DNA of 64,000 nt, from NCBI RefSeq assembly GCF_008271655.1, contig NZ_VKKX01000044.1:171763-235762 (forward strand), written 5' to 3'. Shown here one piece after another: positions 10,352 to 35,842 of this stretch. How positions within the stretch are numbered: position 1 is the first letter of the stretch; every line of letters begins with the position of its first letter. The position numbers were made by a program, and so were the translations under genes. The stretch comes from Gemmobacter caeruleus. Lineage in GTDB: Bacteria; Pseudomonadota; Alphaproteobacteria; Rhodobacterales; Rhodobacteraceae. Below the pieces are notes generated by a model. It searched no databases and had not been told where the DNA came from. It was given only the letters and a program-made list of their open reading frames with translations.

Positions 10352-10426
<75 letters not shown>

Positions 10427-10539: not shown

Positions 10540-10614
<75 letters not shown>

Positions 10615-31116: not shown

Positions 31117-33000
31117 TCAGCCGAAGACCGCGCCGTCGGTGCGGCGGATGGCGATCAGCGTCGAACGCGGCAGGCCGCCTGCCATATCGGGGAAATCGCC
31201 GCCCGGATGCTGGATGCCGACAAAGACCGTCCGGCGATCCGACGACCAGGTCAGGCCCGTGACCTCCGCCCCTTTCGGCGCGGTCAGGAAGCGTTCGATC
31301 CGCCCCGAGGCCGGGTCGCCCACCAGCATCTGATTGTTGCCCTGACCTGCGAAATCGCCCTCATTGCTGTCTTCGCCATCGGTCTGGATCCACAGCATCC
31401 CGTTCGAGTCGAACATCATGCCATCGGGCGAGTTGAACATATTGCCGGCATTGATGTTGGACGAACCGGCATAGGCATCCTGATGCGCCTCGGGGTTGCC
31501 GGCCATCACGAACAGATCCCATTTGAAGCTGTCGGCGCCGTGATCCTCATCCGCCGGATACCAGCGGACGATCTGGCCGTAATGGTTTTCGGCGCGCGGG
31601 TTCGGGCCGCCGACCGGGGTCTCGTCGCCGCCGGCATTCGGCTTCTTGCCGCGGTTCTTGTTGTTGGTCAGCGCGCAATAAGCCTCGATCGCGCGGGGAT
31701 TCACCGCGACCCATTCCGGGCGGTCCATCGTGGTGGCGCCCAGTTTCGACGCGGCCTGGCGGGTATGGATGCAGATTTCCGCCGCCGTCATGCCGGTCGC
31801 CTCGGGCGTCAGCGCCATCCAGCTGCCGGTGCCGTCCTCGGCGAATTTCGCGACGTGAAGCTGGCCCTTGTCGAGCAGCGTCGCGGTATCGCCGCCCGCC
31901 TCGTAGCTGTCGGTCGAGACGAATTTATACAGGAACTCGCCGCGCTCATCATCGCCCAGATAGACCACGACGCGGCCATCGCGGGCCAGGGTCACAGCGG
32001 CGTTTTCATGTTTGAAACGGCCAAGGGCGGTGCGCTTCACCGGGGTCGATTCCGGGTTGGCCGGGTCGATTTCCACCACGTAGCCAAAGCGGTTGGGCTC
32101 ATTCACGTTCTTGGCCAGATCGAAGCGCGGGTCGAACTGTTCATAGCCATAGACCGATTCCGCCTCGATCCCGTAGCGGGCAAAGGTTTCGGGCAGCGCG
32201 ATCTCCAGATTGGTGGAGCCGAAATAGCCGTTGAAGTTTTCCTCGCAGGTCAGATAGGTGCCCCAGGGCGTCTTGCCGGCGCCGCAATTGTTCAGCGTGC
32301 CCAGAACCTCGGTGCCGGTCGGATCGGCGGGGGTGCGCAGCAGTTCGTGCCCGGCGGCGGGGCCGGTCAGACGCATCGGCGTGTTGTGGTGGATGCGGCG
32401 GTTGAAGGGGCTGTCCTTCACGATGGCCCAGCCTTCGGGCGCCTCGGCCACTTCCATCACCGTGACGCCTTGCAGGTTTTGCAACAGACGCACATCGGCC
32501 TCGGATTTCACCTTTTCTTCCTGCTCCTTGGGCAGGTTGATCTCGGGGTTCACATATTCATGGTTCACCGCGATGACCTGACGGCCCCGGATGTTGAACA
32601 GTTCCACCCCGTCGGTGTTTTCACCAAACACCCGGTCCGAGCCCTGCGCCGGCACACCCTTGGCCGCGTCAAAACCCGGCGCATCGGAAAACAGCGCATC
32701 GCCCCAGCGGGCCAGCGGCTTCCATTCATATCCTTCCGGCACATGCACCGTGCCATCGGTCGCCACCGGCAGCGGCGCAAAGGCGAAACGCGCATTGGCG
32801 GTCGCGGCCTCGGCGGCGGTGGAGCGCAGCAGCGTTCCCATCACGGCCGCGCCCGAGCCGAAGGCCACCAGACCCGACAGAAAGCCCCGGCGCGACAGGC
32901 CGCGCGCGACGATGCGGTCGAAATCGGTTTCCTCGGCGCGCGGGCTGCGGGCCTCGTCGAAGGCGTCAAAGGAAAAGGGTTCGTGGCGGGTCTCGGTCAT
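31117..33000 (-). CDS. phoX: PhoX-family alkaline phosphatase, Tat-exported
   Basis: A 627-residue protein. The Tat motif SRRGFLSG (about 37-44) precedes a hydrophobic stretch, indicating folded export to the periplasm. PhoX signatures follow: WGDALF, EYVNPEINLP, TYLTCEENFNGYF, GRFKHENAAV, and the C-terminal NIQHPGGDFPD-like segment (GIQHPGGDFPDMAGG). PhoX enzymes release phosphate from organic esters with calcium and iron. AGGAG before ATG 33000 decides against 33021. No pho box or pst gene is visible nearby. Confidence 0.9.
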   Translation of the reverse strand: MTETRHEPFSFDAFDEARSPRAEETDFDRIVARGLSRRGFLSGLVAFGSGAAVMGTLLRSTAAEAATANARFAFAPLPVATDGTVHVPEGYEWKPLARWGDALFSDAPGFDAAKGVPAQGSDRVFGENTDGVELFNIRGRQVIAVNHEYVNPEINLPKEQEEKVKSEADVRLLQNLQGVTVMEVAEAPEGWAIVKDSPFNRRIHHNTPMRLTGPAAGHELLRTPADPTGTEVLGTLNNCGAGKTPWGTYLTCEENFNGYFGSTNLEIALPETFARYGIEAESVYGYEQFDPRFDLAKNVNEPNRFGYVVEIDPANPESTPVKRTALGRFKHENAAVTLARDGRVVVYLGDDERGEFLYKFVSTDSYEAGGDTATLLDKGQLHVAKFAEDGTGSWMALTPEATGMTAAEICIHTRQAASKLGATTMDRPEWVAVNPRAIEAYCALTNNKNRGKKPNAGGDETPVGGPNPRAENHYGQIVRWYPADEDHGADSFKWDLFVMAGNPEAHQDAYAGSSNINAGNMFNSPDGMMFDSNGMLWIQTDGEDSNEGDFAGQGNNQMLVGDPASGRIERFLTAPKGAEVTGLTWSSDRRTVFVGIQHPGGDFPDMAGGLPRSTLIAIRRTDGAVFG

Positions 33001-33232
33001 TTCTGGCTCCTGCGCTTGCATGCCGCCCCCTTGTATCGGGGTGCTGGGGGTTGCCTAATCCGCCCGGGTGACAGCCATGTTGCGGTCTTGTGAAGCTTCC
33101 ATGTCGCCCGGAACGCCGGCGAGTCGCCCCCTGCCCCGGCATGTTTTGCGAATCTTGCGGCGGAATGGCGCATCCTTGGAATAAAAGTTCAAGTTTCGCC
33201 CCGACCGAGACACTTTCCATGCGGATTTGGCA

Positions 33233-33259
33233 TTGACGCCCCCGGCAGAGGCCCATAAG
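33233..33259 (+). promoter_or_regulatory. Putative ilv promoter
   Basis: TTGACG (33233-33238) is followed 15-17 bases later by CATAAG/TAAGGT around 33254-33261. This would start the leader transcript near 33266, about 30 bases before the leader peptide. The -10 match is weak. Bases 33001-33230 contain no gene. Confidence 0.45.
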
Positions 33260-33295
33260 GTCCGGCGCATCGAAATGCTCACGAAGGGGGACGCC

Positions 33296-33343
33296 ATGGG
33301 CGCGCTTCTCGTCATCGTAAGGGACAGGCGCATGGGCCGGTAA
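33296..33343 (+). CDS. ilv leader peptide (attenuation)
   Basis: A 15-codon frame with GAAGGGGG at 33283-33290, reading MGALLVIVRDRRMGR then TAA. Codons 4-8 are Leu-Leu-Val-Ile-Val, all three branched-chain amino acids in a row. It lies directly before a terminator hairpin and the acetolactate synthase operon. The design fits ribosome-mediated attenuation: stalling at these codons when charged branched-chain tRNAs are scarce. Confidence 0.85.
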   Translation: MGALLVIVRDRRMGR

Positions 33344-33399
33344 CGGCAGACCATTCCGGTTCCCCATGCGCCCCCGAGGAAATCCTCCGGGGGCTTTTT
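33327..33399 (+). promoter_or_regulatory. ilvBN attenuator: antiterminator and terminator
   Basis: GGCGCATGGG (33327-33336) can pair with CCCATGCGCC (33363-33372), supported by an inner CCGG/CCGG pair. The competing terminator is CCCCCGAGGA (33371-33380) with TCCTCCGGGGG (33383-33393) and TTTTT (33395-33399). The two share 33371-33372. A ribosome at the leader stop covers the first arm and lets the terminator form; one stalled on LLVIV leaves it free. Confidence 0.82.
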
Positions 33400-33442
33400 C
33401 GTATCCACCGCCGCGGCGAAGCGGCACAAGGGAAGTTGAGAG

Positions 33443-35209
33443 ATGACCAAGGCGAATGCGGGCACCATGTCGGGTGCGAAGATGATCGTGAAGGCGCTGA
33501 AGGATCAGGGGGTGGAGGTCGTCTTCGGCTATCCCGGCGGCGCCGTTCTTCCGATCTATGACGAGATTTTCCTGCAAAACGACATTCGCCACGTCCTTGT
33601 CCGCCACGAACAGGGCGCCATTCACATGGCCGAGGGCTATGCGCGTTCGACCGGCAAGCCGGGCGTGGCGCTGGTGACCTCGGGCCCCGGGGCGACCAAT
33701 GCGGTGACCGGGCTGACCGATGCGCTGCTTGATTCGATCCCGCTGGTGGTGCTGTCGGGCCAGGTGCCGACCTTCATGATCGGCACCGACGGGTTCCAGG
33801 AGGCCGATACGGTGGGCATCACCCGCCCCTGCACCAAGATGAACTGGCTGGTGAGGGATACCGAGCGGCTGGCCGAGACCATTCACACCGCCTTTCATGT
33901 GGCGACCTCGGGCCGCCCGGGGCCGGTGCTGATCGACATTCCCAAGGATGTGCAATTCGCCACCGCCGACTATGTGGCGAAGGAAAAGGTCAAGGCCTCG
34001 CATTACCAGCCGCGGGTAAAGGGCGATATCGACCAGATCACCCGGCTGGTGGAACTGCTGGAAAAGGCCGAACGCCCGATCTTCTATACCGGCGGCGGGG
34101 TGGTGAATTCCGGCCCGGCGGCAAGCCAGCTTCTGCGCGAACTGGTGGATGCGACCGGCTTTCCGATCACCTCCACGCTGATGGGCTTGGGCTCTTATCC
34201 GGCGTCGGGCCAGAACTGGCTGGGCATGCTGGGGATGCACGGGCTTTATGAGGCCAATCTGGCCATGCATGGCTGCGATCTGATGATCAATATCGGCGCG
34301 CGCTTCGATGACCGGATCACCGGGCGCGTGGCCGATTTCAGCCCGCATTCGGTCAAGGCCCATATCGACATCGACCCCTCGTCGATCAACAAGGTGATCC
34401 GGGTGGATGTGCCGATCATCGGCGATGTGGGGCATGTGCTGGAAGACCTGCTGCGCGTCTGGAAATCGCGCGGGCGCAAGGTGAACAAGGATGGCCTGGC
34501 GAAATGGTGGAAGCAGATCGCCGAATGGAAGGCGGTGAACTGCCTCGATTTCAAGAACAGCGACAAGACCATCAAGCCGCAATATGCGCTGCAACGGCTG
34601 GAGGCGCTGACCAAGGGGATGGATCGCTACATCACCACCGAGGTCGGCCAGCATCAGATGTGGGCGGCGCAATTCCTGGGCTTCGAGGCGCCGAACCGCT
34701 GGATGACCTCGGGCGGGCTGGGGACGATGGGCTATGGCCTGCCGGCCTCGATCGGGGTGCAGATCGCGCATCCCGAGGCCCTGGTGATCAACGTCGCGGG
34801 CGAAGCGTCCTGGCTGATGAACATGCAGGAAATGGGCACCGCGATGCAATTCCGCGCCCCGGTCAAGCAGTTCATCCTGAACAATGAACGGCTGGGCATG
34901 GTGCGGCAGTGGCAGGAATTGCTGCATGGCGAGCGCTACAGCCATTCCTGGTCGGAAAGCCTGCCCGATTTCGTGAAACTGGCCGAGGCCTTTGGCTGCA
35001 AGGGCATCAAATGCAGCGATCCGAAGGATCTGGATGACGCGATCATGGAGATGATCCGCTATGACGGCCCGGTGATCTTTGATTGTCTGGTGGAAAAGCA
35101 CGAAAACTGCTTCCCCATGATCCCGTCGGGCAAGCCGCATAACGAGATGCTGCTGGGCGAGGCCGAGACACAGGGCGTGATCAAGGCCGGCGGCGCGGTG
35201 CTGGTGTGA
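33443..35209 (+). CDS. ilvB: Acetolactate synthase large subunit
   Basis: A 588-residue thiamine diphosphate enzyme, first step of valine, leucine and isoleucine synthesis. Motifs: VFGYPGGAVLPIYDEI, the cofactor-activating glutamate in VRHEQGAIHMAEGYAR, and TSGPGATNAVTG. The diphosphate/Mg motif usually written GDGS is GEAS here (NVAGEASWLMNMQEMG ... FILNNERLGM). It follows the attenuator and precedes ilvN after a half-repeat. The name ilvI would be equally valid. Confidence 0.95.
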   Translation: MTKANAGTMSGAKMIVKALKDQGVEVVFGYPGGAVLPIYDEIFLQNDIRHVLVRHEQGAIHMAEGYARSTGKPGVALVTSGPGATNAVTGLTDALLDSIPLVVLSGQVPTFMIGTDGFQEADTVGITRPCTKMNWLVRDTERLAETIHTAFHVATSGRPGPVLIDIPKDVQFATADYVAKEKVKASHYQPRVKGDIDQITRLVELLEKAERPIFYTGGGVVNSGPAASQLLRELVDATGFPITSTLMGLGSYPASGQNWLGMLGMHGLYEANLAMHGCDLMINIGARFDDRITGRVADFSPHSVKAHIDIDPSSINKVIRVDVPIIGDVGHVLEDLLRVWKSRGRKVNKDGLAKWWKQIAEWKAVNCLDFKNSDKTIKPQYALQRLEALTKGMDRYITTEVGQHQMWAAQFLGFEAPNRWMTSGGLGTMGYGLPASIGVQIAHPEALVINVAGEASWLMNMQEMGTAMQFRAPVKQFILNNERLGMVRQWQELLHGERYSHSWSESLPDFVKLAEAFGCKGIKCSDPKDLDDAIMEMIRYDGPVIFDCLVEKHENCFPMIPSGKPHNEMLLGEAETQGVIKAGGAVLV

Positions 35210-35281: not shown

Positions 35282-35842
35282 ATGTCGGCGCTCAATATCA
35301 CCAAGGGCTCCACGAGCCATTCCGCCTATGACCTGCGCGATCCCTATGCCGAGGTGATCGAAAGCCATACGCTTGCCGTCATCGTCGCCAATGAAAGCGG
35401 CGTGCTGGCGCGGGTGATCGGGCTGTTTTCGGGTCGCGGCTACAATATCGACAGCCTCACCGTGGCCGAGGTCGATCACGAAGGGCATCGTTCGCGCATC
35501 ACCATCGTGACGCGCGGCACGCCGCAGGTGATCGAACAGATCAAGGCGCAGCTGGGCCGGCTGGTGCCGGTGCATGAGGTGCATGACCTGACGGTGGAAG
35601 GGCCCAGCGTGCAGCGCGAACTGGCGCTGATCAAAGTGGCGGGCAAGGGCGAGCAGCGGATCGAGGCGCTGCGGCTGGCCGAGATCTTTCGTGCCAATGT
35701 GGTGGACAGCACGCTGGAAAGCTTTGTCTTCGAGATGACCGGCACCCCGGAAAAGATCGACGCCTTTGCCGAGCTGATGCGTCCGCTGGGCCTGCGCGAA
35801 GTGGCGCGGACCGGCGTCGCCGCCCTGTCGCGCGGGGTCTGA
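35282..35842 (+). CDS. ilvN: Acetolactate synthase small (regulatory) subunit
   Basis: A 186-residue ACT-domain protein that stimulates the large subunit and confers valine feedback inhibition. HTLAVIVANESGVLARVIGLFSGRGYNIDSLTVAEVDHEG is the N-terminal ACT domain; QLGRLVPVHEVHDLT and the FEMTGTPEKIDAFAELM C-terminal part complete the family pattern. The name ilvH is equivalent. Two hairpins follow the stop. Confidence 0.95.
   Translation: MSALNITKGSTSHSAYDLRDPYAEVIESHTLAVIVANESGVLARVIGLFSGRGYNIDSLTVAEVDHEGHRSRITIVTRGTPQVIEQIKAQLGRLVPVHEVHDLTVEGPSVQRELALIKVAGKGEQRIEALRLAEIFRANVVDSTLESFVFEMTGTPEKIDAFAELMRPLGLREVARTGVAALSRGV

Follow-up and report, generated by a model that had tools for sequence, protein, structure and literature searches.

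A predicted leader-peptide attenuator of ilvBN in Gemmobacter caeruleus and similar leaders before an MFS transporter

In the trp, his, ilv and leu leaders of Escherichia coli, a ribosome that stalls at control codons selects between two RNA folds. Branched-chain attenuators of this general kind were reportedly predicted for the alpha-proteobacterial acetolactate synthase operon, as the abstract of Vitreschak and colleagues from 2004 is said to state. Leader-peptide attenuation of ilvB is already known. The relevant passage of Corbino et al. 2005, citing Vitreschak 2004, lists ‘an ilvB leader peptide’ among alpha-proteobacterial elements previously described (PMC1273637), and attenuation of Caulobacter crescentus ilvBN is described in a passage of PMC4117421 that cites Tarleton et al. 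1994. The section of PMC10272879 on the ilvB-II and ilvB-OMG motifs reports an Ile/Leu/Val-rich uORF before ilvB, and a terminator; the ilvB-II uORF, described in Corynebacterium, usually has 15–17 codons, and one representative was reporter-tested.

Here we describe such a leader in Gemmobacter caeruleus, in a window of 64,000 nucleotides (the whole stretch of DNA that was analyzed). From its sequence and that of its relatives, we consider it very probable that the element controls ilvBN as a ribosome-mediated transcription attenuator. Attenuators of this sort are textbook biology, for which the comparison presented here adds good new support.

Anatomy of the ilvBN leader region

The element sits between divergent phoX (minus strand) and ilvB (plus strand), and the T5 run that closes its terminator ends 43 bases upstream of ilvB (Table 1). 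Among the best 80 matches, the nearest relatives of IlvB are those of three Gemmobacter species, at 93–95% identity. In the phoX product, the start is followed by SRRGFL, which we take to resemble a twin-arginine signal. Elsewhere, the window holds two tRNA-Gln (ttg) genes (10352-10426 and 10540-10614; Rfam, 60.3 bits each) with a spacing of 113 bases.

Table 1 Features of the leader region and neighboring genes, numbered from the first letter of the window
Feature	Position	Strand	Basis or remark
phoX, PhoX-type alkaline phosphatase	31117-33021	-	PF05787, E 3e-181
-35-like box TTGACG, putative leader promoter	33233..33238	+	TTGAC kept in relatives
-10-like box CATAAG	33254..33259	+	spacer 15; read from the window sequence
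Shine-Dalgarno-like AAGGGGG of the leader	33284..33290	+	sequence
Leader ORF MGALLVIVRDRRMGR, 15 codons and TAA	33296..33343	+	sequence; alignment of 93 leaders
Control codons 4-8, CTT CTC GTC ATC GTA (Leu-Leu-Val-Ile-Val)	33305..33319	+	kept Leu/Ile/Val; rare codons enriched
Putative antiterminator helix P1, 5' arm GGCGCATGGG	33327..33336	+	within codons 11-14; comparison
Small hairpin P2, CCG-GUAA-CGG	33337..33346	+	stop UAA in GNRA-type loop; inside P1 loop
Small hairpin P3, GACC-auucc-GGUU	33349..33361	+	present in part of the relatives only
Putative antiterminator helix P1, 3' arm CCCATGCGCC	33363..33372	+	comparison
Intrinsic terminator	33370..33399	+	stem 33370-33394, T5 33395-33399; comparison
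ilvB, acetolactate synthase large subunit	33443..35209	+	NF006581 1129.5 bits (cut-off 974); Pfam TPP enzyme domains
ilvN, acetolactate synthase small subunit	35282..35842	+	NF008864 226.9 bits; PF10369

An initial annotation, made from the window sequence, had placed a 15-codon leader with Leu-Leu-Val-Ile-Val before ilvB, and the leader is found there, with the residues M G A L L V I V R D R R M G R between an ATG at 33296 and a TAA at 33341-33343. The ten-pair helix claimed in the same annotation, here P1, is perfect in the window, with all ten pairs formed between its arms. Its 5' arm had been assigned to the last codons of the leader; it does lie inside the leader, but spans the last two bases of codon 11 through the first two bases of codon 14. 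The terminator stem reads GCCCCCG-AGG-aaat-CCT-(C)-CGGGGGC and is followed directly by TTTTT. P1 and the terminator share only the bases GCC at 33370-33372, and this overlap is present in all 93 aligned sequences described below.

On the window sequence alone, folding statistics are modest: the z-score is -2.70 for 33280-33399, with three of 200 shuffles equally good, and -1.26 for 33240-33445, with 23 of 200 equally good. Simple pattern scans of 32800-33800 list neither terminator-like nor promoter-like sites. Comparison is more telling for the -35-like box, as all 93 distinct loci have TTGAC in the 110 nt that precede the leader start, versus 60 of 1209 stretches of 110 nt from ilvB. The commonest -10-like form among relatives is CATAAT (30/93), and transcription would start at about 33265.

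Conservation of codons and helices

We surveyed 110 ilvB loci, comprising the best 80 matches and 30 from a second genome set that overlaps the first in species; the best 80 are the closest relatives and thus provide no census of the order. Both P1 arms are present in 102 of the 110. A stricter core pattern, which fixes part of the P1 5' arm and codons 12–15 and leaves codons 4–8 outside, is matched by 74 of the best 80 loci and 99 overall, and these 99 yield the 93 distinct sequences of our alignment. Because of what the pattern fixes, variation in the P1 5' arm and in codons 12–15 is under-counted. The initial annotation had named loss of the leader codons or stems in relatives as grounds against it, and both are kept: in addition to the arms, codons 4–8 encode Leu, Ile or Val at all five positions in 68 of the 93 leaders and at four of five in the other 25, and all three amino acids occur within codons 3–9 in 81.

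Three off-pattern loci keep P1, with leaders that end in RMGR (L096), RMGW (L097) or RMGP (L109) and have Leu/Ile/Val at two of five (L096) or four of five (L097 and L109) of codons 4–8. Eight of the 110 loci do not have both P1 arms. One of these (L073) retains a VVLI leader, the 3' arm and the terminator, with a different 5' arm, and another (L102) retains a TVVLIG leader with different arms; these two are the only loci of the 110 that have a leader with replaced arms. L051 and L060 hold terminator-like remnants, and no leader is visible on inspection in L026, L045, L075 or L110. One related genome (G034) carries a pair of ilvB genes, with 86% and 83% identity to that of the window, and the attenuator accompanies both (G034:C49:87735-87861 and G034:C24:54092-54217). 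Of 18 regions upstream of ilvB in genomes that diverge further, five in the family of the window and 13 outside it, L151 alone has an RMGR leader, and the rest have other leaders or none visible. In two divergent family members (L235 317-445 in G027, and L154 in G018), Leu/Ile/Val-rich ilvB leaders are accompanied by quite different helix arms and by a terminator that follows the helix with no overlap.

The choice of codons in the leader differs strongly from that in ilvB of the same species. Within leader codons 4–9, GTA makes up 59.7% of Val codons versus 2.8% in ilvB (21-fold), and CTA 20.6% of Leu codons versus 0.8% (25-fold), ratios that may be inflated since ilvB itself may favor common codons. 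With the same reservation, CTT accounts for 56% of leader Leu versus 10% in ilvB, ATT for 58% of Ile versus 11% and GGA for 52% of Gly versus 2.9%, and the common codons CTG (69% in ilvB, 5.7% in leaders) and GTG (55% and 5.6%) are depleted approximately tenfold. Rare codons were proposed early for attenuators, a view that the relevant part of PMC1183508 treats as an oversimplification, arguing for selective tRNA charging instead.

The end of the leader appears to be constrained as RNA. Across codons 12–15 of 96 distinct leaders (the 93 and three further loci), synonymous and amino-acid changes number 11 each, and arginine, where present, is encoded differently at its two positions: by CGC at codon 12 in 89 of 91 leaders and by CGG, which provides 22.5% of the Arg codons of ilvB genes, at codon 15 in 92 of 93. 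Both observations make selection look nucleotide-level, subject to the pattern-dependent under-counting noted above, and peptide-level selection on RMGR is unsupported by them. We also considered an internal start at codon 13, which is not general because this codon can be CCG or AGG in the transporter leaders discussed below.

The helices differ in how they vary, and all counts of two-sided changes given here are inflated by kinship of the sequences. In P1, 54 of 93 sequences retain the outermost pair (33327 with 33372). Among the nine inner pairs, three are invariant, five have only one-sided changes of the G-U type, and the innermost has three G-U type changes and 5/93 unpaired cells; no two-sided change occurs in any of the nine across the 93 sequences, with variation of the 5' arm conditional on the selection pattern that fixes part of it. 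In P2, 99.3% of pair cells are kept and two of three pairs have two-sided changes (five cells), most clearly in L099, which has UCU-GUAA-AGA. Taken together, P1 and P2 pair in 96.2% of cells versus 28–60% in slid versions, and their two-sided changes (two pairs, five cells) are no more numerous than in the slid controls (up to two pairs, eight cells). In the terminator, 99.2% of pair cells are kept and three of seven pairs have two-sided changes (eight cells), versus at most one pair and four cells in slid controls, and the tract that follows has at least five T in 92 of 93 sequences. P3 forms at least four pairs in 57 of 93 sequences and at least three in 71, with a mean energy of -1.8 kcal/mol versus -0.36 kcal/mol for shuffled sequences, and is absent from some roseobacters. 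The P1 arms are therefore more constant in sequence than pairing needs while the neighboring terminator covaries, and the attenuator model leaves this constancy unexplained.

Related leaders before an MFS transporter

A covariance model built from the alignment (R1) was used to search 385 genomes of the class under strict filtering, at the cost of weak matches. At E≤0.001, it matches 17 of the 385, five of them in the family of the window. Outside the family, 11 of 12 matches lie directly before an MFS transporter (L125-L134 and L136), with a best E of 1.1e-14 among the transporter loci. The twelfth, L135 (E 5e-4), is a bare hairpin that we read as chance. We read three weaker candidates, with E of 0.008–0.025, in the same way: inspection by eye places the hairpin of G061:C2 after a pnp-like gene and that of G029:C72 after another gene, and G256:C15 inside a pnp-like gene. 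With a loose DNA pattern, 101 of the 385 genomes gave matches, most of which looked like chance by eye; a reversed control also matched some, and we left this pattern out of the counts.

Seventeen of the transporters (11 found with R1, five from the Rfam family Atu_C8 considered below and one from plasmid pTB1) are 42–95% identical in all 136 pairs; of the two that were classified, the transporter of L111 scores as Bcr/CflA family (TIGR00710) and that of L132 as MFS_1. Their leaders, for example MHILIVVVGERRLDR and MNPKSVVVVVSRRCMVR, are rich in valine, with 52 Val, 9 Ile and 6 Leu in 16 leaders, some closely related, versus 222 Val, 154 Leu and 93 Ile in the 93 ilvB leaders (Fisher P 3e-6, kinship ignored).

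The element also occurs on plasmids. In a blastn search against plasmids, the leader of the window matches Roseobacter denitrificans pTB1 in two records (E 5e-6, 75.5% across 97 bases of the query) and, at E 7e-4, two Burkholderia replicons, where the element precedes the transporter. A tblastn search with the transporter yielded 31 plasmid records, and the ten loci that we examined, two of them chosen through blastn, give no rate. R1 scores 77.7 bits on pTB1, 69.2 on Phaeobacter piscinae pP14_b, 65.4 on the Leisingera caerulea plasmid and 55.2 on the Burkholderia cenocepacia locus, and the three roseobacter plasmids with the element (pTB1, pP14_b and that of L. caerulea) are typed as conjugative. 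Three other loci (L240, L243 and L246) gave no match, either with R1 (E up to 1) or with Rfam models at their gathering scores. At two more, a TPP riboswitch (RF00059) stands in its place, on Agrobacterium tumefaciens pAt2 (L239 952-1068, 74.6 bits) and a Mesorhizobium mediterraneum plasmid (L244 949-1065, 75.4 bits). One transporter group thus appears under two kinds of RNA control, a TPP riboswitch or a leader-peptide attenuator.

A named Rfam family, Atu_C8 (RF02502, ‘Rhizobiales sRNA’), has, in Rhizobium, the position and architecture of the element seen before the transporter. In the window, it matches 33295-33409 end to end with 21.6 bits (E 0.04), below its cut-off of 50, and the window element is at most related to Atu_C8 and not a member. 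The Atu_C8 consensus can be read as AUG AUU AUU CUU GUG GUG GGC CCG CGC AUG GGC AGG GCG GUG UAA, with a consensus helix GCGCAUGGGC/CCCAUGCGC. Six genomes pass the cut-off in the two sets searched (142 and 36 genomes), and all six loci precede the same kind of MFS transporter; in the five that were aligned, P1 is accompanied by a hairpin whose loop holds the stop codon and by another small hairpin. On a plasmid of Rhizobium etli 8C-3 (L245 885-1005), Atu_C8 scores 109.7 bits before an MFS transporter and reads as a leader, MVLGVVIGRMGRVV, with its stop codon in a hairpin. In contrast to the window element, the terminator of Atu_C8 is separate from P1 and the gene downstream is the transporter instead of ilvB. 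R1 scores the Atu_C8 loci weakly, at 13–22 bits; common origin with the window element is therefore likely, but the score alone does not establish it. In open-licence literature, we found no description of Atu_C8/RF02502 attenuation or of a Bcr/CflA or MFS leader: the part of PMC5913331 that names Atu_C8 gives merely its family number, and the words attenuator, leader peptide, MFS, Bcr and efflux are all absent from PMC3927594.

How the two forms are distributed bears on a possible move between genes. In 40 hand-chosen genomes, of which 11 outside the family were taken because they already matched, the element stands at ilvB with E≤0.001 in 20 genomes of the window's family (counting once G034, with its two copies) and at E 0.007 in G025. 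It stands at the transporter in G011, G014, G018 and the 11 outside the family, and no match is found in G024, G027, G033, G118 or G132. In none of the 40 do ilvB and transporter copies occur together at E≤0.001, and R1, even at E up to 5, detects no second copy beside that of ilvB in the genome of the window. The ilvB leaders of G011, G014 and G018 are built differently. Inspection by eye reveals no such leader at eight related transporter loci of the family (L189, L191, L194 and L197-L201), among them that of the window's own genome (L191), and R1 has no match there at E up to 1. An IlvB tree with 30 rows (20 ilvB, four transporter and six unlabelled) requires a single change between the two states, and so do 93% of bootstrap trees, but support for the deciding branch is only 67/88 and 15 of the inner forks stay open. 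G018 alone is placed outside the ilvB rows, because G011 and G014 fall in an unresolved fork among them. Leisingera and Phaeobacter have both the ilvB form (L032, L061) and the plasmid form (L241, L242), in different strains, so the forms do not exclude one another within a genus.

The simplest reading of these patterns would be that the element passed from the transporter to ilvB inside the family, although the direction may have been the opposite, from ilvB to transporter. More broadly, the ilvBN attenuator of Rhodobacteraceae could be a transplanted module that elsewhere, conjugative plasmids and bacteria beyond the Alphaproteobacteria included, controls a Bcr/CflA-like MFS transporter, with its codons retuned on moving and with Atu_C8 as the Rhizobium form of the transporter's attenuator. 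The transporter, annotated as ‘multidrug’, would then be predicted to handle valine or a relative of valine, or else to be switched on when translation slows, for instance under drugs that target the ribosome. We regard this joint reading as evenly poised between right and wrong. There are several implications. First, a leader-peptide switch appears, unexpectedly, to be shared as a module by a biosynthetic operon and a mobile transporter, with codons retuned. Second, the module offers a substrate prediction for a transporter whose annotation is merely ‘multidrug efflux’. Finally, it suggests an attenuator role for a small RNA named in Rfam.

Switching, alternatives and known attenuators

We propose that when charged tRNA(Leu), tRNA(Val) and tRNA(Ile) are ample, the ribosome would reach the stop codon and cover the 5' arm of P1, the terminator would form, and a leader transcript of ~135 nt would result. 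Upon shortage of any of these three charged tRNAs, the ribosome would stall at codons 4–8, and P1, capped by P2 and usually by P3, could fold ahead of RNA polymerase, compete for the three basal bases of the terminator and thereby allow transcription into ilvBN. By lying in the P2 loop, the stop codon may adjust the time for which a terminating ribosome holds P1 open. We infer this switching, its direction and the part played by P2 from the arrangement of leader, helices and terminator.

Folding calculations are consistent with several features of this model. With the downstream edge of the ribosome set 13 nt past the start of the A site, P1 is predicted to form for stalls at codons 1–8 and to drop from codon 9, in line with the initial claim that stalling at codons 4–8 leaves the arm free. 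The two-state reading in that annotation also fits, as we see no general 1:2 protector arm: across the 93 loci, the 5' region pairs with the P1 arm no better than in mononucleotide shuffles (mean z -0.10; 7/93 below -1.64; -0.78 in the window). To our knowledge, a protector arm is not required of all attenuators; with no general one here, an untranslated ilvBN leader should also read through. The claimed overlap with the terminator fares less well: the terminator and its T5 are present, but the shared segment is merely three bases, and both folds coexist at equilibrium, where the inner pairs of P1 form together with the terminator and near-basal terminator pairs keep a median probability of 0.91–0.96 for stalls at codons 1–7. 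The switch must therefore rest on kinetics, crowding or loss of basal terminator pairs; with the shared bases at the base of the terminator, beside the U-tract, displacement, timing or crowding would have to do the work. Counting against the mechanism, the Atu_C8 form, L154 and L235 have no overlap between helix and terminator at all, eight of the 110 ilvB loci do not have both P1 arms, and two-sided changes in P2 do not exceed those of the slid controls.

The same observations could be turned toward a trans-acting product, either a small RNA, with the near-constant P1 arms as a seed for other targets, or the leader peptide itself. The P1 arms hardly vary and have no two-sided change in 93 sequences, whereas the terminator has them; Atu_C8, an sRNA according to Rfam, has a terminator without the helix overlap; and the passages of PMC7298713 and PMC10117765 on rnTrpL and peTrpL of Sinorhizobium provide a precedent. 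Set against this, all six Atu_C8 loci above the cut-off directly precede a same-strand gene, and the equal numbers of synonymous and amino-acid changes in codons 12–15, with no visible selection on the peptide, point to RNA rather than to a trans-acting peptide. We consider a trans-acting product unlikely.

A small-molecule riboswitch, responding for example to ppGpp or a branched-chain intermediate, would make the leader ORF incidental. P1, P2 and P3 do form a compact junction with conserved letters, and ppGpp riboswitches precede branched-chain amino acid genes in other bacteria, according to the relevant passages of PMC8632094 and PMC10272879. A riboswitch, however, needs neither the conserved Leu/Ile/Val codons nor the choice of rare ones, P3 is absent from part of the roseobacters, and Rfam 15 at gathering score finds two tRNAs only in the whole window and no riboswitch, making this explanation highly improbable. 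That a plain terminator without regulatory meaning lies beside a chance ORF, as the modest single-sequence folding statistics and the empty terminator scan might suggest, is scarcely credible, because conservation of codons, helices, promoter box and spacing makes a chance origin untenable.

As a ribosome-mediated attenuator, the ilvBN leader can be set beside the systems introduced above. It shares with the alphaproteobacterial ilvB attenuators of Vitreschak 2004 and Tarleton 1994, as far as the passages citing them describe these, the gene, the bacterial class, the branched-chain codons and the terminator. By description rather than alignment, and as given in the section of PMC10272879 cited above, ilvB-II and ilvB-OMG are like it in having the uORF and a terminator, but belong to other bacteria (Corynebacterium and various phyla, respectively). 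As in the E. coli trp, his, ilv and leu leaders, stalling at control codons would choose the fold. Unlike those leaders, however, the element described here has no general 1:2 arm, its antiterminator and terminator overlap by three bases only, and its stop codon lies inside the loop of a hairpin carried on the antiterminator. These last two features make it a compact system for asking how small an antiterminator overlap can be.
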